A DNA stretch of 36,504 bases from Actinomycetota bacterium (GTDB lineage Bacteria > Actinomycetota > Aquicultoria > Aquicultorales > JAMCWL01): the NCBI GenBank assembly GCA_023481285.1, contig JAMCWL010000081.1, positions 8,342 to 44,845 of the forward strand, given 5' to 3'. Under the pieces are notes generated by a model. The model saw only the letters and a list, made by a program, of their open reading frames with translations. It was not told where the DNA came from and searched no databases. The stretch's first letter is position 1. The number at the start of each line of letters is the position of its first letter. Shown piece by piece: positions 4,147 to 10,614 of the stretch. Made by a program: the position numbers and the translations under genes.

Positions 4147-5361
4147 ATGGCAAGCAGTTTCGTCTATAAGGTGAGGGACAAGCAGGGCAAGTTGATATCC
4201 GGCTCCCTCGAGGGAGATTCGATGACCGCCGTCGTGACCAAGCTCCGTCAGATGGGCTACGTCGTCGTCGACGTCAGTGAGAAGAGCCTTACCTCAAAAG
4301 AACTGACCATCCCGGGTTTATCGAATCGGATAAAATCGAAAGATCTCACGATTTTCAGCCGGCAGTTCGCAACTATGATCAACGCCGGCCTTTCGCTCAC
4401 CAAATCCCTGGCCATACTAGCCGAGCAGACGGAGAGCAAGGCGCTTCGGAAGATCGTCGGGGAGATTCTCCAGGATGTGGAGAAAGGACGGGCGCTTTCA
4501 GAGGCGCTGATCAAAAATGCGCGCGTCTTCCCGTCGATCTTCATCAACATGGTCAAGGCCGGGGAGGCCGGAGGCGTTCTCGACGAGGTCCTGTTGAGGG
4601 TCGCCGATCACTTTGAGAGCGAGGCGGCCATCAAATCCAAGATCAAATCGGCGATGGCCTACCCTACGGTCATGTTCGGGATGTCGATGCTCATAACTTT
4701 CGTTCTCATCACCTTCATCGTACCGATTTTCGCTAAGATGTTCACCGAGATGGGCGGTTCGCTACCAGCGCCAACGGCGTTCCTCTTGGCCCTCAGCGCT
4801 TTCATGCAGAGATTCTGGTGGCTCATGTTCATCTTAGGCATAGGCGCGTACCTGGCGTTCCGGTCGTACAAGAGGACGGAAAAGGGCCGGACGAACGTGG
4901 ACAACATCAAATTGAAGCTCCCCATCTTTGGGAAGCTGACCCAGAAGATGTCGATCGGGCGCTTCAGCCGGACGCTGGGCACCCTTCTCACCAGCGGTGT
5001 TCCGATTCTCCAGGCGCTTGATATTGTGGCCGACAGCGCCGGGAACGCCATCGTCGCCAGGGCGGTAAAGGCGACGAGGGCCAGCATCAAAGAGGGCGAG
5101 ACGATCGCCAAGCCGCTCACGGGCGAGAAGGTCTTCCCGCCGATGGTCGTCCAGATGATAGCGGTTGGCGAGGAGACGGGCGCTCTCGACACGATGCTCT
5201 CGAAGATCGCCGATTTCTATGACGCGGAGGTCACGACGACCGTCGAAACGCTCACCTCGGTCCTCGAGCCCGTCCTGATCGTCTCGATGGGTCTCATAAT
5301 CGGTGGCGTCCTCATCTCGCTTTACATGCCGATGTTCAGCATTATTTCGCTAATTAAGTAA
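4147..5361 (+). CDS. pilC: Type IV pilus inner-membrane platform protein PilC
   Basis: A 404-residue PilC/GspF protein, the polytopic platform on which PilB and PilT act. It shows the two tandem T2SSF domains with the family's repeated pattern: FSRQFATMINAGLSLTKSLA near residue 75 and FSRTLGTLLTSGVPILQALD near residue 275. Each is followed by a KAGEAGG or AVGEETGAL segment. Membrane segments lie near 171-195, 222-240 and at the C-terminus (about 374-398). The ATG is preceded by GGGGTGA. The last 12 bases overlap the 3' end of the convergent STT3-like gene. Confidence 0.96.
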   Translation: MASSFVYKVRDKQGKLISGSLEGDSMTAVVTKLRQMGYVVVDVSEKSLTSKELTIPGLSNRIKSKDLTIFSRQFATMINAGLSLTKSLAILAEQTESKALRKIVGEILQDVEKGRALSEALIKNARVFPSIFINMVKAGEAGGVLDEVLLRVADHFESEAAIKSKIKSAMAYPTVMFGMSMLITFVLITFIVPIFAKMFTEMGGSLPAPTAFLLALSAFMQRFWWLMFILGIGAYLAFRSYKRTEKGRTNVDNIKLKLPIFGKLTQKMSIGRFSRTLGTLLTSGVPILQALDIVADSAGNAIVARAVKATRASIKEGETIAKPLTGEKVFPPMVVQMIAVGEETGALDTMLSKIADFYDAEVTTTVETLTSVLEPVLIVSMGLIIGGVLISLYMPMFSIISLIK

Positions 5362-7695
5362 GGGAGCTTCCAACACTATCGACTTGCCCTGTGAGACGTC
5401 GCTTTCCGCTATATCGACGGGATAGGTCTTGCCGGCTATCGACACCTTGAAGGTGTCCGCTTTGACCGGATAGCGGCCGCTTTTCGTGGCATAGGGTAGA
5501 AAGATTTCGAACCTCCCGTCAGCCCCGGCTTTTCTCGTTAACTTCCAGTCGACCGCTTTAGCGCCCTTCGGCCTTATCTTGGTACTTATTGCAGCCACGG
5601 TACCGGGAGCCGCCTTAACGCTGAGCCGTGCTCCTTCAACCAGCTCGAAAAGCATAGTGGCGTACTCGGAGTCTCCACCTGTCACATTGATCAGGCGAAA
5701 GCGTTGGAGGGGCTCGGCCCCTTCCTTCTCGTTGCCCGCGCCCCAAAAGCGGTGCATGCGGACGTTGGTAAGTTGCATGTAGTCACGCCGGGTGATGTCC
5801 TGTTTAGTCGCCAGGTGAGCTCTCTTGTATGGATCCGGCCCGGATTCCCCGATCTCCTCGACCTTGCCCGTCCATGGGCTAAGCTCGTCCTGGAGTATTA
5901 TATAGCGTAGGCGAAGTTCCTTCATGAGCTTGACCGCCTCGGCTTCGGTTCTCGACTGGAAAATCCGGTTCGAAGCGATGATCCCGTCGATTCCCGTCTC
6001 GTGGTTCCCGGTCGTCAGAGTTGGTCGCTCCGCAATGAGCTCGACCAATTCACCATAGCTCCACTCGGCGACAATGCCGTATTCAGGCGAGCGGTTTGGC
6101 TCATAGTAATTGCTCACCTTCGGGGTGTTTTCCCTGATCCATTCGAGCATCTTAACGCGGTTGACGTCTACCATGTATCCGGACGCTGACATCCAGAAGA
6201 TAAGGTAACTGGAGAAGGCGATTGTTGCGACAAGCCATGCAGTGGTGGTCGCCGGTCGCTCCAGTCGCTCTCCGCCAATAGCTCCGACAATCTTCCCTAC
6301 CGACTCGGAGAGCTTGGCGATGAGGAGGGCGAAAGAGAGGACGATGACCGGAGTGAAAAGAAATACATAGTATCGGACCATGAGGGCATAGAACCCTGCG
6401 ATTATGAACCAGATGAAAAAAAGCAGTCTCCCAAAGCCCAGCCGGCGGCTGACGATCGCCTCGCGAGCACCGACAATTAATCCGAGAGGGAGAAGATATA
6501 CGAGCGCCGAGAGGGAGACGAAGACGTTTTGCGGTCCGTCGGCAAAGAGAGGCTTAAGTTGCTGGGTAACTCTCCCCAATGGATAGTAGGCAATGCTTCT
6601 GTAGAAGCCTCGAACGATCTGTTCGCCGAGACCGGGGAGGAAGAGAGGGATCGCAGCTATGACGAGATAGAGGCCGAATAAAGCCGCTACTCGTATTATC
6701 TGACGATTAACCAGAGAGGCATCAATAGCACGGGATAGGACGAGTATGCCCGCCAGGCCGATAAGTAGGACCGGCTGGAAAAGGGAGAGCCCCGAAAAAG
6801 AGAGGCGATTCTCAAACCAGGGCGTGGCCAAGTAGAGCATGAGCATCGAAAGACCCGACGAAGCCATAGTCAGCCCGCCTATCCGGGAGACATGCCGCCT
6901 CTCGTCTTCCGCCAGGACGAGAAGGCCGATCATGAAGGCGACTCCAAGAATGGCGATGACCAGTATTGCGCTTAAGGATATGAGCAGCGTGAAGGTGACT
7001 GTTAATCCCGCAAGCACGGCTAGCGCTCCGGCTCTCCGGCTCTCGCCACTCGAGTAGTAATGGTGCGAGCCGACGAGGAGTGCGATGGTCGACATGTAAA
7101 GAAGAATATCCGCGAGGTGATGATCGACCATCCCGAGCGACGAGACGGCACTTGCCACCGGGAGATAGAGGCTGACGAAAACCGCCGCATGTCCAGCTCG
7201 CCTGCCAAATAAACGATTTCCGGCATAGTAGGCAGGGAAAACGAAAAAGAGGCCGAGGATCAAGGGGAAAAGGGCGGCGGCCGATGGGATTGACATGTTC
7301 GTTGCGCGATTAACCGCCAGGGCAAAGCTCGCCTCGATGAAGGCCCATATCGGCGGGAGCTGCTGCTTCATTCCCCAGGGAAAGTTGGCGAACGAATCGA
7401 ACATCGGCAGGCTCGGGTATTTGCGCGAGATCAGATCGATCAAGCGGAAAAAGCGAGCGGCATCGGAGTCCAAAACATTTGTGTGGGGGTTGCCGAGGGC
7501 GCCGGGGATGAAGAAGGTCCTCACGTAGACGGCGTAAACCAGGGCTAATGTGTATCCGGCCTTAACCACAACGCCTTTAATACGGTCAAGGCGGATGACG
7601 GGCCTCTCCTCGACCGGTCTCTCTTGAGCGTCTATTGCCATAATCTGAGGCACCCGTTTGGTTTCATTGTCGGGCTTAGCATATATCATTGGCAC
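5350..7695 (-). CDS. STT3/PglB/AglB-family oligosaccharyltransferase-like membrane protein
   Basis: A 781-residue GT-C protein with about a dozen hydrophobic segments (about 45-470, plus one at 485-503) and a soluble C-terminal domain, the layout of STT3/AglB oligosaccharyltransferases that move a lipid-linked glycan to Asn of secreted proteins. Visible motifs: DSD (76-78), corresponding to the first DxD-type motif; SLGMVDHH (about 186-193), like the archaeal AglB second acidic motif; and EWSYG (544-548), a variant of the WWDYG acceptor motif followed by the family-like stretch ELVELIAERPT. The usual luminal SVSE/TIXE glutamate may be Gln (VTQQ, 376-379). The end looks like a beta-sandwich. 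The GTG start at 7695 is uncertain; ATG at 7689 or the ATG of MAIDAQERP are alternatives. It is convergent with pilC and divergent from the pilin, which suggests pilin or surface-protein glycosylation (inference). Confidence 0.78.
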   Translation of the reverse strand: MPMIYAKPDNETKRVPQIMAIDAQERPVEERPVIRLDRIKGVVVKAGYTLALVYAVYVRTFFIPGALGNPHTNVLDSDAARFFRLIDLISRKYPSLPMFDSFANFPWGMKQQLPPIWAFIEASFALAVNRATNMSIPSAAALFPLILGLFFVFPAYYAGNRLFGRRAGHAAVFVSLYLPVASAVSSLGMVDHHLADILLYMSTIALLVGSHHYYSSGESRRAGALAVLAGLTVTFTLLISLSAILVIAILGVAFMIGLLVLAEDERRHVSRIGGLTMASSGLSMLMLYLATPWFENRLSFSGLSLFQPVLLIGLAGILVLSRAIDASLVNRQIIRVAALFGLYLVIAAIPLFLPGLGEQIVRGFYRSIAYYPLGRVTQQLKPLFADGPQNVFVSLSALVYLLPLGLIVGAREAIVSRRLGFGRLLFFIWFIIAGFYALMVRYYVFLFTPVIVLSFALLIAKLSESVGKIVGAIGGERLERPATTTAWLVATIAFSSYLIFWMSASGYMVDVNRVKMLEWIRENTPKVSNYYEPNRSPEYGIVAEWSYGELVELIAERPTLTTGNHETGIDGIIASNRIFQSRTEAEAVKLMKELRLRYIILQDELSPWTGKVEEIGESGPDPYKRAHLATKQDITRRDYMQLTNVRMHRFWGAGNEKEGAEPLQRFRLINVTGGDSEYATMLFELVEGARLSVKAAPGTVAAISTKIRPKGAKAVDWKLTRKAGADGRFEIFLPYATKSGRYPVKADTFKVSIAGKTYPVDIAESDVSQGKSIVLEAPLLN

Positions 7696-7838: not shown

Positions 7839-7931
7839 CCTTGTCAGGTCACGAAAGGGCAAACCCGTCGCAAGACGGGGACGCAAAGCCACGGAGCTCA
7901 ACGAGCTGGCCGGGTTGCCGAAGTAACAAGG
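7839..7931 (+). ncRNA. Class I cyclic-di-GMP (GEMM) riboswitch in the pilin leader
   Basis: The sequence reads GGTCACGAAAGGGCAAACC then, after a GCAA-capped hairpin (CCCGTC/GACGGG), the conserved GGACGCAAAGCC, then a second hairpin (GAGCTC/GAGCTG region) closing with GCCGGGTTGCCGAAG. The order of conserved blocks, the GNRA loop and the closing stem CCTTGT (7839-7844) with ACAAGG (7926-7931) are those of GEMM/c-di-GMP-I aptamers such as Vc2 of Vibrio cholerae. The run GGG before CAAACC keeps the G typical of c-di-GMP binding rather than the A common in cGAMP-responsive variants. It lies in the 5' leader of the pilin gene, so pilin output should respond to c-di-GMP; whether ON or OFF cannot be told. 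Confidence 0.93.
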
Positions 7932-8024: not shown

Positions 8025-8411
8025 ATGCTTACGAAGCTTAGGAGCGAGCGGGGCTTTACGCTCATCGAATTGATGGTGGTCATCCTTATTATCGGTATTT
8101 TGGTCGCTATCGCCGTCCCCGTCTTCTCGGCCGCTCGCGAGAACGCCTACAGGAGGACCTGCCAGGCTAACCTGAGAACGCTCGACGGCGCGGTCCAGAC
8201 CTTCAAGGCGAACAGCACAAACGAAAGGTGGCCGGATGCGCTGGTCGATCTCTCGAGCAATAACTATATCAAGTCGGTGCCGACCTGTCCGAAGGCCGGA
8301 GGTACAGCATACGCTTATACCATTACATCGAACACCCAGTCGAACTCACCGACGATCCGTTGCCCGGGTATCGTGAACAGCAACGCCGAGTTCACCGGTC
8401 ACACCTACTAA
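8025..8411 (+). CDS. pilA: Major type IV pilin (PilA-like)
   Basis: A 128-residue prepilin. The leader MLTKLRSERG is followed by the prepilin-peptidase site G10|F11 (GFTLIEL), Glu at mature position 5, and a hydrophobic helix to about residue 33. The globular part has three cysteines (C46, C88, C113), of which C88/C113 could form the C-terminal disulphide loop. A single N-X-S/T sequon, NST at residue 63, is present without an acidic residue at -2. The start is the ATG 8025 with GGGGAGG upstream; the longer upstream reading frame runs through the riboswitch and is not real. Control: sigma-28-like promoter, c-di-GMP riboswitch and a strong terminator after the gene. Small size, dedicated leader and monocistronic layout indicate the main pilus subunit. 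Confidence 0.92.
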   Translation: MLTKLRSERGFTLIELMVVILIIGILVAIAVPVFSAARENAYRRTCQANLRTLDGAVQTFKANSTNERWPDALVDLSSNNYIKSVPTCPKAGGTAYAYTITSNTQSNSPTIRCPGIVNSNAEFTGHTY

Positions 8412-8610: not shown

Positions 8611-10614
8611 TTGGCCGAAGCCGTTGAGTCGCAGCATCAAGCCGATAGCGCCACCTATGATGTCGGGCGAATTCTCGATCGTATCGGCGCCGGCTTTATC
8701 TACCTGGCCGTGGTCCTGATACCGCTTGCAGTAGCACCTTTTGCTCAGGACCAGGTGATGGGCGCGAAGCTTATCACCATGCGCATCCTCGTATCTCTTG
8801 CCGCCTTTACCTGGTGCCTTAAGGGGATGGCCGAAGGATTCCGAGTAAGGTGGAGCGTCGTTTTCTGGCCGGCTCTTTGCTTTCTTGTGCTGTCGCTCAT
8901 TTCAACCGCTTTTTCGATCAGCCCGTTGACAAGCATTTTCGGTACTTACCAGCGGTACGAAGGCTTTTTAAGCTTACTCACCTACACCACACTCCTTTTC
9001 CTAAGCGTTCAATATTTTGACGAGGAGCAAAAGGTTTTTGGTCTGGCGAAGGTCATGGTGGTCACCGCCGTCGCCGTCTCCATTTACGGGCTTCTTCAGT
9101 TCGCCGGCTACGATCCGATAGCCTGGGGAGCGGCGAGCTTTGAAAAGAGCCGTACCATCGCCACCTTGGGAAACCCGATCGTCCTCGGCGGTTACCTGGC
9201 GGTCTCGCTAACTGTTTCTGTCGGTCTCTTAATAACCGCTAGAAACGCAAGGTGGGTGGCAGTATGGGCGGCTGCCAGTACGGTTATCGCTGCTTCGCTC
9301 CTTGTGACTCTCTCACGCGGAGCGTGGCTGGGGGCGCTCGCAGGTGTTGCTTTAGCGATTATCTTAACAGCCAGGGCTCACAAGAATCGCCGTCGATGCG
9401 TGATGACCGGGGTGGCCATAGTGGCGATCCTGATTCTAATCACCAGTTTTACCCTTGTTATCGGGGACAAAACGATAGTCGGGTCGAGATTGCTCTCGCT
9501 GGCAAATCCGCTCACCGGAAGCGGGGAAAGCAGGGTAGAAATCTGGAAAAGCGCGCTCTCAATGACGAAGGAGCGCCCGGTCTTTGGGTATGGTCCCGAC
9601 ACCTTTAAGCTCGCTTTCCCGCTCCACGAGACGCTCGCCTCAGCGAGGTTGTTTCCCCAGACGCTCGCCGACAACGCGCACAACATCATTTTGCAAACCG
9701 CCGCTACCCTGGGGATTCCGGCGCTTATAGCCTTCCTTGCGATTTTTCTCATCTTCTACGTTGAGTTGTTTAGGAAGAGAGCGGTCACTGCCGGGGCGGC
9801 TCTTTTTGTGGCCGCCGTCGCCGCCTACTTCGTCCAGGGGCTTTTAAGCGTTACCGCCGTCGCCACCTCCTTCTTGCCGTGGCTTGCCATGGGCGTGGCT
9901 CTCTCCCCGGGCGCCAAGGAGATCACGGCAACTTCACGCTCGACCATCTTGAAGTACGCCGCCATGTTTGCCGGCATCCTCTCCGTTGCTTCGATAGCTC
10001 AGTCGGCGTTCTTTTTTGCAGCCGACGTCGAGTCCGGCCAGGGCATTATGGCTATCGGCCACGGCGACCTGCAAAACGGTTTCGCTAAACTTACAACAGC
10101 GGCGAGCCTTAACCCCTTCAGCGATCTTTATGTCAGGCAGCTTGCCGGTGTGATGCAGGGGGCGGCAAGGGCCGATGAGAACCGAGAGCGTTATAACGAG
10201 TCACTGACGACGATCAAGCGTGCGGTAAAGCTTGCCCCTGATGACGTCGATAACTACATCGCGCTTGGGGATTTTTACGCTTACGGCGGTGTGACGTATG
10301 ACTCCAAGTATTACGACCGGGCGATCGAAGCTCTAGACAAGGCGGTTGAGCTAAGAAAGTACTCGCCTTCGGGTCACCGAATTCTGGGTTTGGTCTACTT
10401 GAAAACGGGGGAGGCGCGTAAGGCGCTATCTGAACTGAACAAAGCCCTGGAAGTCGATCCCCGAGACGCCCGCGCCCTCCTCTATGAGGGCCAAGCTTAT
10501 GAAAAAGTCGGTGATAAACGAGGGGCCCTTGAAGCTTACCGGACATCGTTCAAGGCCCGCCCGGATTTTATCGAGGCCAAAAAGGCGCTGGACAGGCTGG
10601 AGAAGGAAATTTAG
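8611..10614 (+). CDS. O-antigen ligase/Wzy_C-type membrane protein with C-terminal TPRs
   Basis: A 667-residue polytopic protein with about 12 hydrophobic segments in residues 28-470 and TPR-like repeats in the last 140 residues (ALDKAVELRKYSPSGHRILG, ALSELNKALEVDPRDARALL, ALEAYRTSFKARPDF). The Wzy_C/O-antigen ligase region shows RGAWLGALAGV, GYGPDTFKLAFP and DNAHNIILQTAATLGIPAL, the His-containing signature of this superfamily. Members polymerise or ligate undecaprenyl-linked sugars, and the PglL/TfpO subgroup transfers them to Ser/Thr of pilins. The place right after the pilin gene and within the pilus operon suggests a pilin O-glycosyltransferase, but a surface-polysaccharide ligase is possible. 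The TTG start is supported by GGAGG at 8600-8604. Confidence 0.8.
   Translation: MAEAVESQHQADSATYDVGRILDRIGAGFIYLAVVLIPLAVAPFAQDQVMGAKLITMRILVSLAAFTWCLKGMAEGFRVRWSVVFWPALCFLVLSLISTAFSISPLTSIFGTYQRYEGFLSLLTYTTLLFLSVQYFDEEQKVFGLAKVMVVTAVAVSIYGLLQFAGYDPIAWGAASFEKSRTIATLGNPIVLGGYLAVSLTVSVGLLITARNARWVAVWAAASTVIAASLLVTLSRGAWLGALAGVALAIILTARAHKNRRRCVMTGVAIVAILILITSFTLVIGDKTIVGSRLLSLANPLTGSGESRVEIWKSALSMTKERPVFGYGPDTFKLAFPLHETLASARLFPQTLADNAHNIILQTAATLGIPALIAFLAIFLIFYVELFRKRAVTAGAALFVAAVAAYFVQGLLSVTAVATSFLPWLAMGVALSPGAKEITATSRSTILKYAAMFAGILSVASIAQSAFFFAADVESGQGIMAIGHGDLQNGFAKLTTAASLNPFSDLYVRQLAGVMQGAARADENRERYNESLTTIKRAVKLAPDDVDNYIALGDFYAYGGVTYDSKYYDRAIEALDKAVELRKYSPSGHRILGLVYLKTGEARKALSELNKALEVDPRDARALLYEGQAYEKVGDKRGALEAYRTSFKARPDFIEAKKALDRLEKEI

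Follow-up and report, generated by a model that had tools for sequence, protein, structure and literature searches.

The gene at 5350..7695 of a 36,504-nucleotide stretch of actinobacterial DNA (the window) lies among pilus genes and raises the question of what an STT3-type protein with a changed WWDYG motif can do. A first-pass annotation saw in it either a divergent oligosaccharyltransferase (OST) with a different acceptor rule or a related GT-C enzyme, and named pilin residue Asn63 as a site to be checked for glycosylation. The descent of the protein, the state of its motifs, its relatives and its genomic setting are examined here in turn.

Identity and ancestry of the protein

The positions of the gene and of its peripheral domain are as follows.

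5350..7695, minus strand: polytopic glycosyltransferase gene of the AglB/STT3 family, 781 codons when read from the GTG at 7695
5377..5634, minus strand: AglB_L1 (P1 peripheral) domain, residues 688-773 (PF18079, 1e-11, 45.2 bits against a cut-off of 23.6)

Translation could begin equally well at an ATG at 7687-7689. In the product, a simple scan for hydropathy shows about 13 hydrophobic segments. Pfam matches of the 781-residue protein were obtained for AglB_L1 (1e-11), AglB_core-like (7.3e-9) and STT3 (3.6e-8), each above the curated cut-off, and can be taken as not due to chance; no PMT or ArnT family was matched at E up to 1. The gene is also the only STT3 Pfam match of its genome. TIGR04154 (archaeosortase-associated STT3) covers residues 51-655 at 1.4e-68, and since its score of 232 bits is below the model's own cut-off of 450 bits, the protein is a relative of that subfamily and not a member. 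Among the sequences of solved structures, the only matches at E <=1 were 3waj and 5gmy (Archaeoglobus fulgidus AglB) and the short chains 3vgp and 3vu0, with no match to PglB at E up to 1. When a profile of the five family members described below was used, the match to A. fulgidus AglB improved to 1.7e-38. Homology to the STT3/AglB/PglB oligosaccharyltransferases (GT66) extends over the full length, and the AglB_L1/P1 domain of the AglB-Long architecture is present. The product is best described, on these matches, as a full-length AglB-type STT3 protein with an AglB_L1 P1 domain, an AglB core and an STT3 N-terminus.

The AlphaFold model, built on four sequences, was poor (mean pLDDT 47.3), as was a second model of residues 510-781 (46.3), and the acceptor pocket was therefore judged from sequence alone. 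With the poor model, Foldseek placed A. fulgidus AglB first (3.5e-14), followed by eukaryotic STT3 and then by DPY19, ArnT and PglB. The VIA-align Z scores of the same poor model were 28.7 for AglB (456 aligned, rmsd 12.0, a value that is large because the model is poor), about 24 for STT3, 22.7 for DPY19 and about 16 for PglB, ArnT and PMT, so that PMT and ArnT rank below AglB, STT3 and DPY19. The C-terminal domain alone was aligned to 3wai with a VIA-align Z of 9.2 over 93 residues at an rmsd of 2.6. The 13 hydrophobic segments, and AglB as the top match of a model with a mean pLDDT of only 47, would be compatible with an OST fold of about 13 TM helices and a C-terminal globular domain. The STT3-type identity given in the first-pass annotation agrees with these results. 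AglB is the closest relative by sequence and the motif regions align with it; the structural comparison with PglB and AglB that had been suggested ranks AglB first and PglB well below, on the poor model; and neither a best match to ArnT or PMT nor a failure of the motifs to align was found.

AglB_L1 occurs in 4/396 genomes of the phylum, where it is confined to the five family genes, and also in 2/14 control genomes, both of them euryarchaeal (Haloferax volcanii and Methanosarcina acetivorans). In passages of Lombard 2016 (PMC4973528), bacterial homologues fall within the euryarchaeal portion of the tree. A euryarchaeal origin of this AglB-Long-type enzyme is likely from the domain and profile matches, which are not a tree, and from these we infer the direction of transfer. 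Archaeal contamination of the window was considered and rejected, as the contig has the bacterial pil-aro gene order common to relatives.

Catalytic and acceptor motifs

The motifs were placed against A. fulgidus AglB (AfAglB) by three MAFFT modes, all of which agreed.

7462..7470, minus strand: first DXD, DSD (residues 76-78); D78 corresponds to the AfAglB metal ligand D47 and is Asp in 5/5 members
7117..7128, minus strand: second DXD, V-D-H-H (residues 190-193); D191 corresponds to D161 and H193 to H163
6559..6570, minus strand: TIXE place, VTQQ (residues 376-379); Q379 corresponds to AfAglB E360
6052..6066, minus strand: WWDYG place, EWSYG (residues 544-548); W545 alone is invariant, in 5/5
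5974..6009, minus strand: family-specific loop GNHETGIDGIIA (residues 563-574); N564, E566, G568, G571, I573 and A574 are invariant in 5/5
5863..5874, minus strand: WTGK (residues 608-611); W608 and G610 are invariant, and the fourth residue is K in the window protein and D in the remaining members

According to passages of PMC8342417, D47, D161 and H163 of A. fulgidus AglB are metal ligands and E360 works via water, and activation (twisting) of the Asn amide is proposed to depend on the Asp of the first DXD together with the Glu of TIXE. Passages of PMC3703281 describe the WWD part and the second DK/MI residue as forming the pocket that takes the +2 Ser/Thr. WWDYG is reported as strictly conserved in N-OSTs in passages of PMC3527161 and as present in all AglBs in passages of PMC4287180, and the former also records inactive clones of Campylobacter PglB with single changes at each WWDYG position. 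No AglB without WWDYG is described in the passages of PMC3703281, PMC3527161, PMC4287180, PMC8342417 and PMC12153357, which does not in itself show that none has been published.

The metal-ligand residues of the two GT66 DXD motifs are present as D78, D191 and H193, in agreement with the DSD and VDHH motifs of the first-pass annotation; across the family the Asp of the second DXD is kept in 5/5 members and the third ligand is His in 4/5 (Ile in L005). The two departures listed in the same annotation were likewise reproduced. E544-W545-S546-Y547-G548 aligns without gaps to W550-W551-D552-Y553-G554 of AfAglB in all three modes, and 0/5 family members carry WWDYG, while the Glu of TIXE/SVSE is replaced in the window protein by Q379. 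K611 was aligned with the TGK of AfAglB (K618) in one pairwise alignment, in a region without a confident model, and WTGK is a possible, though uncertain, remnant of the DK motif of the kinked helix. The R426 place is ambiguous, since MAFFT sets Y442 there and R441 is one residue off; an Arg near this place is absent in L003 and L005. Because two defining motifs (WWDYG and the TIXE Glu) are altered, the window protein can be assigned to the STT3/AglB superfamily by descent and is not a demonstrated N-oligosaccharyltransferase.

A small family in Ca. Aquicultorales

Among 60 relatives searched, 4 genomes, the window's own included, contained homologues, and the same 4 full-length carriers, with five genes, were recovered from 396 sampled genomes of the phylum, in keeping with the rarity that had been claimed for such enzymes. 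All carriers belong to the order Ca. Aquicultorales (Actinomycetota), where they make up 4/12 genomes. One of them, G005, has two copies. Additionally, G004 has a relic some 60 codons long, whose closest family member is L003 at 43.5% identity. No relatives were found in genome contigs by a single-protein scan, in viral contigs by a scan with the family alignment or on plasmids by tblastn.

The five members form two branches. The window protein and L002 (47% identity) make up one, and L003, L004 and L005 (43-46%) the other, with 27-29% between them. At the WWDYG place the members read EWSYG, DWFSG, NWDQS, NWSWS and SWADA, so that only the second Trp is constant. At the TIXE place Gln is found in the window protein and L002 only, and Glu in L003, L004 and L005. 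D78, D191 and H192 are invariant in 5/5 members and H193 in 4/5.

Mean conservation was 0.314 over 711 ungapped columns. The four WWDYG positions other than the second Trp had a mean of 0.049, compared with 0.319 for comparable sets. Of the 688 comparable sets in the whole protein 14.8% were as low or lower, and of the 180 from the globular domain 14.4%. Taken as a whole, with its constant second Trp, the five-residue motif does not stand out: 36.9% of 686 stretches of five residues are as low or lower. Conservation at the WWDYG place is low but not extreme; it carries weight because this motif is conserved almost universally elsewhere.

All 5/5 members have full-length open frames and match both AglB_L1 and AglB_core. 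Between the window gene and L002, third codon positions differ at 0.675 and the others at 0.423 and 0.274; third positions differ most in all ten family pairs. This excess indicates that the protein is maintained by purifying selection. To judge from these comparisons, a small, maintained, WWDYG-less AglB family exists in Aquicultorales, with five genes and one relic; in it the acceptor pocket drifts while the metal Asp residues and the following N-x-E-x-G loop stay fixed.

The pilus locus and the donor side

The window gene converges with pilC, their ends sharing 12 bases, and is divergently oriented to the pilin gene. Elsewhere in the order, the pilin gene comes 116-363 bases after pilC (measured between blast-match ends) and no gene of this kind separates the two (11/11 other genomes; one contig of this set, L080, ends inside the pilin). 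The other four homologues sit in unrelated neighbourhoods, and tblastn with 16 window proteins gave no match to pil genes in the stretches examined around them. The description of the surroundings as a pilus locus is true of the window genome but does not extend to the other four homologues. The insertion between pilC and pilin is unique to the window genome (0/11 others), which weakens the case for an enzyme dedicated to the pilus. Since the gene is absent from this gap elsewhere, the pilus locus is the location of this copy and not evidence on its substrate.

The window pilin has the sequon NST at 63, and the pilins of the other three carriers have theirs elsewhere. Pilins with N-X-S/T were found in 4/4 OST-carrying genomes and in 3/7 examined non-carriers, numbers too small to serve as evidence (the G011 pilin is cut off and was excluded). 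G005 and G010 have a pilin sequon at another place, which is also present in the OST-less G006. The position of the window sequon is not common to other pilins, and Asn63 was dropped as a conserved pilin site. The pilin is one candidate acceptor among many surface proteins.

Four PF02397 initiating transferases are encoded in the window genome, so lipid-linked sugars are probably available in the cell. The relative in G003 adjoins a gene for decaprenyl-phosphate phosphoribosyltransferase, an enzyme of the donor pathway of arabinosyltransferases. This adjacency exists in G003 only, and matches to the enzyme above the cut-off were found in G001, G003 and G006 with none in the window genome (G000). 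Decaprenyl-phosphoribose was accordingly rejected as the donor.

Possible functions

The reading that we prefer, with a probability of about 0.5, is that the protein is a GT-C enzyme of the AglB-Long type, with a probable euryarchaeal origin, which would have kept the donor half of an OST and lost the sequon-reading half. Its most likely activity would be that of a polyprenyl-linked-glycan transferase with an acceptor outside the Ser/Thr pocket, perhaps not Asn. As in AglB, a polyprenyl-(pyro)phosphate-linked sugar would be bound at the outer membrane face with a divalent metal, and would then be transferred to this acceptor. In the window protein and L002, a hydroxyl of protein, glycan or lipid would be a more likely acceptor than an Asn amide, because the TIXE carboxylate proposed to twist the amide is missing. 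For the window branch, Gln379 casts doubt on Asn as the acceptor; the Glu is retained in the second branch. More tentatively, an acquired archaeal N-OST may have been retooled, with the window protein and L002 becoming O-linked STT3 enzymes (from Asn to hydroxyl) and the sister branch retaining the Glu and abandoning the sequon. The idea of a different acceptor rule could still hold in general terms, but the motif positions drift among relatives and no new motif has settled, so that loss of the pocket fits better than a re-coded one.

The same drift at the WWDYG place would suit a dead enzyme no less than a re-purposed one, and a catalytically dead or decaying remnant of an AglB gained by horizontal transfer, or an enzyme limited to hydrolysis of lipid-linked glycan, has to be weighed. 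Patchy presence (4/12 genomes), the relic of about 60 codons in G004 and the lost acceptor motifs are in line with decay, which would also fit the missing third metal ligand of L005 and the missing Arg near the R426 place in L003 and L005. Moreover, hydrolysis of the lipid-linked glycan by OSTs without an acceptor is known from passages of PMC8342417. We nevertheless consider decay or mere hydrolysis unlikely, though a serious rival, as 5/5 frames are open over the full length with the codon-position pattern of purifying selection, and D78, D191 and H192 are invariant, as is much of the loop beside the lost motif. A working N-oligosaccharyltransferase with a relaxed or different sequon, in which W545 with E544, S546 and K611 would hold the peptide and Gln379 would tolerate Asn chemistry, is unlikely. 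It would agree with the invariant W545, the kept metal ligands and the TIXE Glu of 3/5 members, while the pilin sequons of carriers are far too few to count. The strict conservation of WWDYG in N-OSTs and the inactivation of PglB by single changes, as given in passages of PMC3527161, stand against it, as do the unsettled motif positions and a window pilin sequon not common to other pilins.

Very improbable is the alternative of a non-OST GT-C enzyme (ArnT-, PMT- or arabinosyltransferase-like) whose likeness to STT3 is superficial. A weak PMT_2 Pfam match in 2/5 members (best 4.8e-5) and the phosphoribosyltransferase gene beside the G003 relative would suit such an enzyme, but AglB_L1 and AglB_core match in 5/5 members, the Z scores on the poor model are 26-29 for AglB against about 16 for ArnT and PMT, and the window genome is without a phosphoribosyltransferase match. 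The related GT-C option of the first-pass annotation, in its non-OST sense, is disfavoured, the best match being AglB by both sequence and fold.

Comparison with known systems and significance

AglB-Long of A. fulgidus (PDB 3WAJ, 5GMY, 7E9S) is similar to the window protein over the whole length and in its metal ligands, DHH second motif, AglB core and P1 domain; the window protein differs in EWSYG, in Gln for the TIXE Glu, in its size (781 versus about 870 residues) and in its actinobacterial host. Bacterial PglB of Campylobacter (PDB 3RCE, 5OGL) shares the GT-C fold and is also a single-subunit bacterial STT3-type protein, yet its Z score to the poor model is 16 against 29 for AglB, and WWDYG is kept in it, as stated in part of PMC3527161. 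Eukaryotic DPY19, a C-mannosyltransferase, has an STT3-like fold (Z 22.7, poor model) that serves a non-Asn acceptor according to passages of PMC10154233, a precedent for such a relative of OSTs. Unlike the window protein, which keeps the OST metal ligands, DPY19 is reported to be metal-independent, and no sequence membership is claimed. Another actinobacterial STT3-like family, represented by L012 of genome G362, also lacks WWDYG (NWSRG) and keeps the second DXD as DTD. It is, however, distant, with a profile match only (hhalign probability 95.6, 381 columns), outside the five-member family, and its genome is not among the 4/396 with AglB_L1.

If the proteins are inactive, they form an instructive decay series of modest interest. 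A maintained WWDYG-less family with its metal site would separate, within one fold, the residues that handle the lipid-linked sugar from those that read the sequon, and would put the amide-twisting proposal to the test through its natural differences at the TIXE Glu. Such a family would also offer a starting point for enzymes of other acceptor ranges.

STT3-like proteins elsewhere in Actinomycetota

Outside the order Aquicultorales, one further STT3-like protein of the phylum departs from WWDYG, the acceptor-pocket motif of oligosaccharyltransferases.

L012 79-2319 (-): STT3-like protein of 747 residues (genome G362, another actinobacterial family)

NWSRG stands in the place of WWDYG in this protein and its second DXD motif reads DTD; it is possible that WWDYG was lost here independently. 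An intact WWDYG was found in two STT3/AglB pieces from one other family of the phylum (L011 of G383 and L017 of G296), both incomplete and running off the ends of the stretches examined. These pieces could be archaeal contamination of the two assemblies.

Neighboring genes in the order

L060 9822-10784 (+): decaprenyl-phosphate phosphoribosyltransferase (NF008977, 300 bits against a cut-off of 234; genome G003)
L062 4897-5088 (-): relic of the AglB-like gene, about 60 codons (genome G004)

The phosphoribosyltransferase gene directly follows the AglB-like gene in G003, and matches to NF008977 above the cut-off occur in only 3 of the 12 genomes of the order. The relic in G004 is adjoined by a second Wzy_C-TPR gene.

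The pilus locus

Window 7849-7923 (+): c-di-GMP-I-GGC riboswitch (RF03167, 70.3 bits, E 7.5e-15)
Window 8611-10614 (+): O-antigen-ligase (Wzy_C) and TPR protein

The riboswitch lies in the intergenic stretch between the divergent AglB-like and pilin genes, about 100 bases upstream of the pilin start at 8025. The Wzy_C-TPR gene is flanked by pilin and pilD. Among the order's other genomes, 10 have contigs spanning this site, and 5 of these 10 carry the gene there. Independently of the AglB-like gene, its product is a candidate O-linked pilin glycosyltransferase.
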